Assembly (NCBI RefSeq): GCF_020711235.1
Contig: NZ_JAJFAV010000001.1
Location: 62,001 to 126,000, forward strand
From: Hymenobacter sp. 15J16-1T3B
GTDB taxonomy: Bacteria; Bacteroidota; Bacteroidia; Cytophagales; Hymenobacteraceae
Direction: 5' to 3'
Length of the DNA stretch: 64,000 bases
The notes below the pieces were generated by a model. That model had not been told where the DNA came from. It saw only the letters and a list, made by a program, of their open reading frames with translations, and ran no database searches. A program made the translations under genes and the position numbers. Of the stretch, positions 31,461 through 33,110 are shown one piece after another. Within the stretch, counting starts at the first letter, position 1, and each line of letters opens with the position of its first letter.

Positions 31461-31653
31461 CACCGCGGAAGTAGAACACGCCTTTGTACTCAGAGCGCAG
31501 TAGGCTAAAAACAGTTGTCAGGCCGGGTACAATCGATTGTTGCGCTGGCCTCCGGACTAATTACGTTGCCGAATTCAGAACGCACTGCCCAATATTTTTC
31601 GCGCTATTAAAAAACCCTGGCCTACGAATTGCGGTTGATGCCCCGTAAAAGAT
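31461..31653. other. Intergenic stretch upstream of the sulfur-locus promoter
   Basis: About 190 bp between the start of the lipoprotein gene and the promoter at 31654. No gene or strong structure was seen; it presumably contains the promoter of the minus-strand lipoprotein gene. Confidence 0.5.
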
Positions 31654-31685
31654 TTGCAATTCTGGAATTGCGGCTGCTACCTTTG
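31654..31685 (+). promoter_or_regulatory. Promoter of the sulfate-assimilation locus
   Basis: TTG (31654-31656), 21-bp spacer, TACCTTTG (31678-31685). A start site near 31692 gives a leader of about 440 nt before the APS reductase gene, containing a riboswitch and a short reading frame. Confidence 0.72.
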
Positions 31686-31707: not shown

Positions 31708-31804
31708 TGTTTTTATACAGAGGCGTGGAGAGACTGGCTCCGGGAAGCGCCGGCAACCATCGGGAAAGTCCCGAACGGTGCCAATTCCAGATCATATAAA
31801 AACA
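31708..31804 (+). ncRNA. SAM-I (S-box) riboswitch
   Basis: P1 is a perfect 10-bp helix (TGTTTTTATA 31708-31717 with TATAAAAACA 31795-31804). The conserved S-box core is present in order: AGAGGCG, GGAGAGACTGGCTC, GCGCCGGCAACC, a P3 hairpin TCGGGA/TCCCGA, then GGTGCCAATTCC. GCAACC and GGTGC have the spacing expected for P4 and ligand binding. SAM-I riboswitches bind S-adenosylmethionine and lower expression of downstream genes. Here it precedes the APS reductase gene and, nearer, a Cys-rich small reading frame. No classical U-tract terminator follows P1, so control of translation or Rho-dependent control is more likely. Confidence 0.9.
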
Positions 31805-31840
31805 CCGCTTGTCGTGAACTTCGACTTCACCCCCCGCGCA

Positions 31841-31933
31841 ATGATGGCTGGCCCCGCTGCTCCGCAGCTGGCTTCCTACGGCTTCGACAACGGCTGTTGC
31901 TGTTGTATGCCGATGCGCCGCGCGTGTTGTTGA
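31841..31933 (+). CDS. Candidate Cys-rich leader peptide (poly-Cys uORF)
   Basis: A 30-codon frame with ATG at 31841 and TGA at 31931. The product starts MMAGPAAPQLASYGFDNG and ends CCCCMPMRRACC. Six of the last twelve codons are Cys (TGT TGC TGT TGT, then TGT TGT) and two are Met. It lies 36 nt after the SAM-I riboswitch and about 200 nt before the APS reductase start in the same transcript. An in-frame GTG at 31814 could extend it by nine residues. The codon cluster is what is expected of a leader peptide whose translation stalls when charged Cys-tRNA is low. Translation has not been shown; the inference rests on codon content and position. Confidence 0.6.
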   Translation: MMAGPAAPQLASYGFDNGCCCCMPMRRACC

Positions 31934-31981: not shown

Positions 31982-32011
31982 CTAAGCGCCAAGCCCTTGC
32001 GCGCCGCTTAG
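31982..32011 (+). promoter_or_regulatory. Hairpin between the Cys-rich frame and APS reductase gene
   Basis: CTAAGCG (31982-31988) and CGCTTAG (32005-32011) form a 7-bp stem with a GC-rich interior that can pair further. No U-tract follows. It could be part of the leader's regulatory folding. Confidence 0.35.
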
Positions 32012-32131: not shown

Positions 32132-32887
32132 ATGTCGACGCTTATCGATGCCCAGGTGGCGCAACTCCGGCAGCAAATTGCCGGCGCCGATGCCTTGGAT
32201 ATCCTGCGCGCTGTAGCGGCCGAATTCGGCGGCAAAGCCACATTTTCCACCTCTTTCGGGCTCGAAGATCAGGTAATTACCCACCTGATTTTTGCCCACG
32301 ATTTACCCATCGAAGTATTCACGCTCGACACCGGTCGGAATTTCCAGGAAACCTATTCCACCTGGAGCAAAACCGTGCTGAAATACGGCAAAACCATCCG
32401 CGCCTATTACCCCAATCAGGACGAGGTGGCCGCGCTGGTGGAACGCCAGGGTCCCAACGGGTTCTACGAAAGCGTGGACGCCCGCAAGGCCTGCTGCCAC
32501 GTGCGCAAAGTGGAGCCGCTGAGCCGCGCCCTCACCGGCAAAGCCGCCTGGGTCACGGGCATCCGCAGCGAGCAGTCGGCCAACCGCACCGGCATGCACG
32601 CGGTGGAGTGGGACGCCAACTACCAGCTGTTCAAAGTCAACCCGCTGCTCGACTGGACCTGGGAGCAAACCTGGGCGTTCGTCCGCGAATACAGCATTCC
32701 GCACAACCCGCTGCACCTGCAGGGCTTCGTGAGCATCGGCTGCGCGCCGTGCACCCGGGCCATCAAGCCGGGCGAAGACTTCCGCGCCGGCCGCTGGTGG
32801 TGGGAAGATCAATCGGCCAAGGAGTGCGGCCTGCACCACACCGCAGCCCCGGCGGAGGCTTCGGCCGCCGTCATTACCGCACATTAG
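32132..32887 (+). CDS. cysH: Assimilatory APS reductase (CysH family, iron-sulfur type)
   Basis: 251 residues from the ATG at 32132. PP-loop fold with the STSFGLEDQV motif near residue 48. The paired and spaced cysteines KACCHVRK and IGCAPCTRAI are the [4Fe-4S] ligands of APS reductases; enzymes that use PAPS lack them. The redox-active Cys is in the C-terminal KECGLHH. The enzyme reduces adenosine 5'-phosphosulfate to sulfite with thioredoxin. It is the first gene of the sulfate-assimilation locus, under a leader with a SAM-I riboswitch and a Cys-rich frame. No APS kinase gene is seen, in agreement with direct APS use. Confidence 0.95.
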   Translation: MSTLIDAQVAQLRQQIAGADALDILRAVAAEFGGKATFSTSFGLEDQVITHLIFAHDLPIEVFTLDTGRNFQETYSTWSKTVLKYGKTIRAYYPNQDEVAALVERQGPNGFYESVDARKACCHVRKVEPLSRALTGKAAWVTGIRSEQSANRTGMHAVEWDANYQLFKVNPLLDWTWEQTWAFVREYSIPHNPLHLQGFVSIGCAPCTRAIKPGEDFRAGRWWWEDQSAKECGLHHTAAPAEASAAVITAH

Positions 32888-32993
32888 AACGTCATGTCGA
32901 GCTTGTCGAGACACCTCGCGTGCTGATGTGGGATAGTAAGCTGATGATTGATTTACTATCCGACGAGATGTCTCGGCGGCGCTCGACCTGACG
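32886..32993. repeat. Intergenic inverted-repeat element (copy E)
   Basis: Left arm AGAACGTCATGTCGAGCTTG and right arm ending GCGCTCGACCTGACG, with an inner pair GGATAGTAA/TTACTATCC. It lies between cysH and cysD inside the sulfur locus. Confidence 0.7.
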
Positions 32994-33110
32994 AGCTGCC
33001 GGGGCCGCCCCGCAAGCTCCGATTCCACTCCGCGCTCCTACCGCATTCCCCGCTTTTCCTGACTTCCTCACAATCGGCCCGAAACGGCCGAACAGGCACC
33101 CTTTTGCCGT

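Follow-up and report, generated by a model that had tools for sequence, protein, structure and literature searches.

A poly-Cys leader reading frame behind a SAM-I riboswitch: a probable two-input sulfur sensor ahead of cysH in Hymenobacter

The region upstream of cysH in Hymenobacter sp. 15J16-1T3B contains a SAM-I riboswitch aptamer, followed by a short upstream open reading frame (uORF) that ends in a run of Cys and Met codons immediately before its stop. Judging from sequence comparison, it is quite probable that this leader is a two-input sulfur sensor, i.e., a Cys-tRNA-sensing leader peptide that is gated by SAM-I and located ahead of cysH. The parts of the locus are listed in Table 1, with positions in the window, the whole stretch of 64,000 nucleotides that was analysed. 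The candidate promoter was placed by means of the TAnnTTTG/TTTG consensus, which we take to describe Bacteroidota promoters. A TAnnTTTG element was found directly upstream of the aptamer or the uORF in 77 of the 80 scorable cysH leaders (90 were read). As the promoter-like site occupies the same place in these leaders, the aptamer and the uORF are probably the 5′ leader of cysH.

Table 1. Features of the cysH locus in the window.
Feature	Position (strand)	Description
Candidate Bacteroidota-type promoter	31653..31685 (+)	TTTG at 31653-31656 and TAnnTTTG (TACCTTTG) at 31678-31685; lies a short way 5′ of the aptamer
SAM-I riboswitch aptamer (RF00162)	31710..31802 (+)	cmscan, 73.3 bits (gathering cut-off 44.4)
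SAM-I P1 arms	31710-31717 and 31795-31802	TTTTTATA and TATAAAAA; arms placed by eye
Leader ORF (uORF)	31814..31933 (+)	GTG start, 39 codons and TGA, codes for VNFDFTPRAMMAGPAAPQLASYGFDNGCCCCMPMRRACC; same start position in the window leader and in those of the six congeners with cysH
Cys/Met control codons (putative)	31895..31930 (+)	CCCCMPMRRACC; 5 TGT, 1 TGC and 2 ATG, immediately 5′ of the stop
Possible hairpin	31982..32011 (+)	CTAAGCG...CGCTTAG, between uORF and cysH; from an alignment of 7 leaders
cysH, APS/PAPS reductase	32132..32887 (+)	Pfam PF01507 (PAPS_reduct), NCBIfam NF002537, TIGR02055

When charged Cys-tRNA is scarce, the ribosome would stall on the Cys run beside the stop codon and cysH would be expressed; with ample Cys, it would finish the uORF and depart, and cysH expression would be low. 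SAM stabilises P1 in SAM-I riboswitches, and since P1 lies near the uORF start, SAM is expected to hinder uORF initiation. Binding of SAM would close P1, the A-rich 3′ strand of which ends 11 nt ahead of the start codon, and initiation would thereby be blocked. The net result would be a leader that is switched off by an ample supply of either SAM or Cys. In tnaC-like control, a ribosome halted at the stop codon covers the adjoining bases, and a starved ribosome at the Cys run could similarly cover the first bases past the stop. For the output step, as no conserved intrinsic terminator was found, the likeliest candidates are termination of Rho type in the exposed leader and translational coupling to cysH. 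We infer Cys-tRNA sensing, the gating of uORF initiation by SAM and this output step from the layout of the leaders. Slightly better than even, in our judgement, are the chances of a broader proposal. According to this proposal, TATAAA-type SAM-I riboswitches in Bacteroidota would use the start of a Cys/Met leader peptide as their expression platform, the whole sulfur regulon (sulfate reduction, sulfhydrylase, permease and TonB-linked uptake) would be off when SAM or charged Cys-tRNA is abundant, and the leader peptides would have been rebuilt repeatedly around the same tail.

The first-pass annotation of this locus had described a 30-codon frame between a SAM-I riboswitch and the APS reductase gene, running from an ATG at 31841 to the TGA at 31931-31933. 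Its place and its neighbours hold, as the aptamer score and the profile matches of cysH indicate (Table 1). The start does not: the conserved start codon is the GTG at 31814, 11 nt downstream of the aptamer end, which gives 39 codons, and the ATG is internal to this longer ORF and absent in several of the six congeners with cysH. Six Cys and two Met codons had been counted among the last twelve, and these are indeed present. In the tail, GCCCCMPMRRACC, the Cys codons are TGT TGC TGT TGT (31895-31906) and TGT TGT (31925-31930). TGT and TGC had also been called rare, which is correct for the long ORFs of the window, with 78 Cys codons per 12,917 codons, 7 of them TGT. A search of NCBIfam with the uORF peptide matched no family. 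The window genome has four SAM-I aptamers, the one in the cysH leader included. When this genome was scanned for TGY runs followed by a stop, 49 matches were obtained, 38 of which end in TGG (no stop) and 11 in a true stop; none of these 11 looks like a further leader, as 10 lie under frames of at least 482 aa and one (L158) under a frame of 171 aa. Between cysH and the next gene, at 32887-33000, the window additionally contains an intergenic palindrome-like repeat (GTCATGTCGAGC...GCTCGACCTGACG), and like pieces are found beside cysH in L037 and L039.

Within the genus (g1, 8 genomes including that of the window), a cysH match is present in 7 of the 8 genomes, in all seven cases in the order aptamer, uORF, cysH. 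A comparison with related Hymenobacteraceae genomes had been proposed by the first-pass annotation. When this was done, the frame, the Cys cluster and the stop proved to be kept in the window and in all six congeneric cysH leaders, with uORF tails that include CCCCMPMRRACC, CCCCCMPMGRACC and CCCCLAMRRACC. Synonymous changes were found as well, in that three Cys columns alternate between TGT and TGC, and much of the remaining peptide varies.

A search of the family gave 115 cysH matches in 114 of 150 genomes. Leaders of 90 of these 115, selected by genus, were read; among those omitted are all eight remote g4 matches. In g5, a sister genus that is probably Hymenobacter, a SAM core was detected by regular expression in 43 of 45 cysH leaders, and 33 of these 43 pass a strict tail test. 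With a relaxed test, for which three Cys among the final 25 residues of an ORF behind the aptamer were enough, 41 of the 45 are positive, two lack a core and two fail. In g3, the regular expression found a core in 16 of 24 cysH leaders, 15 of which have a Cys tail; the cores of L370 and L378 appear to be false, being located too far upstream, which leaves 14 convincing cases. Among the 8 g3 leaders without a core, L379 has a short Cys-containing frame. Reverse complements of the cysH leaders, used as controls, were positive in 0/7 (g1), 2/45 (g5), 3/24 (g3) and 1/14 (g6). Some g5 cysH leaders, e.g., L331, L335 and L350, have a recurrent VQHGCC or LQHGCC ahead of the final Cys codons; the DNA at this piece is CTGTACAGC in L084, L089 and L097, where an RNA hairpin is possible. 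In L239 (Hymenobacter sp. ASUV-10), Cys-rich codons precede cysH in a leader without a Rfam SAM match, and the riboswitch may have been lost there.

The poly-Cys frame is not confined to the window locus, as it is found throughout the family, in other families and also without a SAM riboswitch. To be counted in the strict test, a uORF had to have a start codon 4-18 nt past the aptamer and at least 3 Cys within its last 13 residues. All 35 SAM-I matches of g1 were taken; by downstream gene, these are 7 cysH, 8 APC amino-acid permease, 8 O-acetylhomoserine sulfhydrylase, 4 RimK-like ATP-grasp and 8 metH loci. Each of the 27 loci located before a cysH, permease, sulfhydrylase or ATP-grasp gene passes, which agrees with the earlier opinion that such an ORF is unlikely to arise by chance. 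None of the 8 metH loci of g1 has a Cys-tailed uORF, nor has any other metH locus examined. For g5, all 31 SAM-I matches of 7 genomes were examined, and 17 of the 21 TATAAA-type loci among them pass; the failures are L073, L089, L090 and L097, some of which have Cys farther from the stop or a start out of range. The groups g2, g4 and g6 (11 genomes, 30 matches, one of them under the Rfam cut-off) contribute 17 of 18 TATAAA-type loci, and 12 of 13 TATAAA-type loci were positive among 28 further top-scoring ones. Outside g5, the failures are L026 and L106. Two additional positives, L017 and L024, lie beyond the loci classed as TATAAA-type by regular expression. Apart from these two, such an ORF was found at L196 only among the 103 remaining GATAAG-type or unclassified loci.

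In other families, 5 of 10 TATAAA-type loci (by regular expression) pass among 70 loci, which came from a class search of 295 genomes (30 top-scoring and 40 picked, favouring genomes with several matches). L200, L203 and L204, from another family of the order, combine a TATAAA-type SAM-I and a start codon at +9 with an ORF without a Cys tail, followed by a sulfhydrylase-like gene; the control codons seem to be lost or different there. The ORF at L219 contains 2 Cys only, and L235, a metH leader, has no start codon within range. In a looser scan, which asked for three or more Cys among the final 8 residues of an ORF, 58 of 73 TATAAA-type leaders were positive, against 0/73 reverse complements, 0/73 segments farther downstream, 5/71 upstream segments and 127/3650 Markov shuffles; as loci are related, counts such as these are not independent and related sequences are counted repeatedly. 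The cysH tails of the window's own genus fail this looser scan, with 2 Cys in the last 8 residues and the Cys in two clusters, and L018, a locus of the other type, passes.

Regarding the role of the aptamer, the distance between the aptamer end and the uORF start is 7-12 nt in 85 of the 87 TATAAA-type loci with a start codon. At L106, which lacks a uORF, a Cys/Met-metabolism gene that clusters with sulfhydrylases starts 7 nt past a TATAAA-type aptamer, at the usual position of the uORF start. Together, the spacing and the L106 arrangement point to a translational platform that would act on the uORF. Terminator-like hairpins within 150 nt were found behind 43 of 103 GATAAG-type aptamers (a set that includes L017 and L024, both without such a hairpin), 9 of 81 TATAAA-type aptamers and none of 8 class C aptamers, a contrast between two platforms that is incomplete, with 60 of the 103 GATAAG-type aptamers lacking a terminator match. 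Alternatively, the uORF could be a Cys-sensing leader peptide and SAM-I could work independently of it, for instance on transcription of the whole leader, so that two sensors stand in series without gating of the uORF. Such an arrangement fits the occurrence of both modules apart from each other. It also fits L221, where SAM-I is followed by a terminator-like hairpin and then by a separate Cys-containing ORF, and L278, which is similar (hairpin by eye). However, the constant spacing, the few terminator-like hairpins at TATAAA-type loci and the structural gene that takes the uORF start position in L106 argue against it, and we regard it as rather unlikely. Gating of uORF initiation by SAM is the preferred reading.

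SAM-I and the poly-Cys leader are separable modules. Among the best 80 named CysH relatives in the matches listed, a Cys-tailed short ORF lies upstream in 11 (0/80 in reverse complement), and three of these 11 have SAM-I, i.e., L240 (Hymenobacter rubripertinctus), L269 and L278. A Rfam scan gave no match for L245, L246, L260, L267, L275 and L283, which belong by title to Chitinophagaceae, a Chitinophagales and an unplaced Bacteroidetes MAG, nor for L265 (Rufibacter ruber). The remaining one, L263, has a long and doubtful frame and was outside the Rfam scan. In g6, which is probably Rufibacter (the L391 peptide is the same as that of L265), all 14 cysH leaders have peptides like MVYSSHIKRMRFCCCSSCCCCC. 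The regular expression found a SAM core in one of these 14 (L389, misplaced), and Rfam found no match in the four that were scanned (L389, L390, L397 and L400). A hairpin that extends over the final Cys codons and the stop codon is present in 13 of the 14 g6 cysH leaders, compared to 0.44 in shuffles. It keeps a G-C to U-A change in 3 leaders, and 1 of the 19 pairs of the consensus fold is changed on both sides. In L389-L402, there are conserved hairpins both over the Cys run and behind it, with a 3′ arm that mostly contains CAACAA, complementary to the TGTTGTTG codons.

Codon-level selection on the Cys run is well shown by these comparisons, and from this selection we infer that the uORF is translated. 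Of the 87 loci with a start codon, 73 have a run of at least 3 TGY codons no more than 250 nt from it, and all 73 runs share the frame of the start, without an earlier stop. The last Cys abuts the stop in 50 of 78 leaders and lies at most 2 codons from it in 77 of 78. Among the last 12 residues, the share of Cys is 38.5% and that of Met is 9.6%, compared to 1.6% and 2.4%, respectively, in the preceding part. Moreover, TGT is preferred over TGC in the leaders, with TGT:TGC ratios of 106:46 in the uORFs of the genus vs 7:71 in window genes (Fisher p 1e-19). For leaders vs downstream genes, the ratios are 73:43 vs 17:78 in g5, 53:21 vs 25:29 in g2/4/6 and 32:25 vs 24:43 in g3. Unlike these Hymenobacter-family groups, other families have 18:13 vs 120:102, which makes the TGT bias a matter of the family.

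A conserved, apparently translated and Cys-rich product encoded behind a SAM riboswitch could also be a functional small protein, binding metal or thiol and co-regulated with sulfur genes, in which case there would be no attenuator. This is improbable, given that the Cys tail recurs with unrelated N-termini ahead of different gene classes and that what persists is chiefly the Cys/Met run at the C-terminus, together with its position at the stop. In addition, nonsynonymous codon differences exceed synonymous ones in pairwise comparisons within four classes (261:89, 447:106, 593:138 and 58:16), and in the leaders studied the ORF precedes, in cis, genes that are linked to sulfur or controlled by SAM. 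A further possibility is that the UGUUGUUG stretch is an untranslated RNA motif, i.e., a protein site or pairing element that happens to resemble Cys codons. The TGT excess, the invariant nucleotide runs of class C, which keeps one fixed order, and the g6 hairpin over the run would suit such a motif. We give it even less credence, since all 73 runs are in phase with the start with no intervening stops, several Cys columns mix TGT and TGC, and the hairpin is not general. That the frame is a chance short ORF with a Cys-rich tail is suggested by nothing beyond the single-locus view and is contradicted by the conservation, the in-phase runs and the shuffle and reverse-complement controls to the point of being negligible.

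With the Cys-sensing leader peptide as the preferred reading, several candidates for the output step were considered. An intrinsic terminator after the uORF was rejected as a general feature: of the 9 hits among 81 TATAAA-type loci, those at L054, L088, L092 and L107 lie inside the uORF and the other five overlap or follow its end. No conserved terminator/anti-terminator pair was found in the SAM-linked leaders. The idea that the Cys run pairs with an anti-run downstream of it was likewise rejected, as whole-segment folds of the SAM-linked leaders and of eight Chitinophagaceae-like leaders were not clearly above shuffles. Pairing of the run with the cysH start region in Chitinophagaceae was dropped on the same grounds. 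In a duplex test of the Cys run against downstream RNA (78 leaders), the mean z was -0.53 (Wilcoxon p 1.6e-4), and folding of the 100 nt past the stop was a little more stable than that of shuffles (mean z -0.44). For the leader class of the window itself, the consensus fold contains one compensatory pair. This pair, A-U to G-C, belongs to the possible hairpin in Table 1 and is probably a single event; one of six tested pairs is broken in three sequences, and the hairpin is weakly supported. The C/G ratio past the stop is 1.25-1.46 vs 0.96 in coding sequence. Such a bias of C over G is weakly compatible with Rho and is not a specific sign of it, since the uORF body is equally C-rich (1.53). 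Because the hairpin over the Cys run is found in g6 only and is not general, the output step may differ between lineages. L126, located 7 kb from L118 in the same genome (G027, contig 16), has a decayed aptamer of 28 bits, below the cut-off, and a leader peptide that resembles that of L118 without the final three Cys codons (CCC). There, the loss of the sensor seems to have gone along with that of the control codons.

With respect to RF00162, the window aptamer is an ordinary member, the neighbour of which is here a leader ORF, neither a terminator nor a gene start. In Bacteroidota, leader-peptide attenuation is known from the Bacteroid-trp RNA. Clues to leader peptides ahead of amino-acid operons have been reported for F. 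psychrophilum (PMC9723704) and B. thetaiotaomicron (PMC7366714); unlike the window leader, the excerpts of these accounts contain neither a Cys case nor a combination with a riboswitch. Poly-Cys leader peptides of cys operons, with Cys codons near the stop and, as far as the excerpt states, without conserved terminators, have been predicted in actinobacteria, where Rho was suggested as a weak prediction (Seliverstov et al., 2005; PMC1262725). The Hymenobacter leaders resemble these in being short ORFs with Cys codons near the stop, ahead of cys genes and without conserved terminator hairpins, and differ from what the excerpt describes in the phylum, in the SAM-I in front and in the wider target set. 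Mycobacterial leaderless poly-Cys uORFs have been reported as Cys-responsive attenuators (Canestrari et al., 2020, as cited in PMC13236596). They are leaderless according to the 2020 title, whereas in the window the uORF start is predicted to follow an aptamer of 93 nt, itself preceded by a promoter-like site. Riboswitch-controlled uORFs have been described in Mycobacterium tuberculosis, i.e., Mbox-pe20 (PMC12810186) and B12-metE/ppe2 (PMC11260477). These also place a riboswitch and a small ORF ahead of a gene, Mbox combining a translational platform with Rho, but they respond to other ligands and their abstracts describe no amino-acid control-codon runs in the uORFs.

Among the matches listed from open-access literature, taken by title and abstract opening and with subscription papers mostly outside, there was no Bacteroidota Cys leader and no pair of SAM-I and leader peptide. 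The parts, a poly-Cys leader and SAM-I, are known; what appears to be new is their combination, the phylum and the regulon-wide use. If the proposal is correct, the leader is a natural two-input RNA device that joins a metabolite riboswitch to tRNA-charging attenuation, in a phylum in which leader control is little studied, and it would account for the way in which methionine/SAM and cysteine are balanced in sulfur assimilation. Within the same genomes, SAM-I of the GATAAG type, which often has a terminator, can be contrasted with SAM-I of the TATAAA type and its leader peptides. Natural controls would be L126 (decayed), L106 (direct gene start) and the g6 cysH leaders (riboswitch-free).

The targets behind SAM-I and a Cys uORF are cysH, O-acetylhomoserine sulfhydrylase, amino-acid permease, an ATP-grasp protein, SusC and an M14 peptidase. 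Of these, cysH and O-acetylhomoserine sulfhydrylase fit the targets of a Cys-type attenuator, i.e., genes making or importing the amino acid. The RimK-like ATP-grasp gene lies behind SAM-I and a poly-Cys leader at L061, L065, L066, L166, L021, L028, L071, L076, L086, L100 and L118, and its product is possibly a thiol or Cys-peptide ligase. An M14 carboxypeptidase-like gene follows SAM-I and a Cys-tailed uORF at L098, L107 and L119, and perhaps serves peptide scavenging within the sulfur regulon. At L109, L117 and L122 (g6), two tandem Cys-tailed short ORFs are located downstream of SAM-I, followed by the gene of a SusC/RagA-type TonB-dependent receptor.
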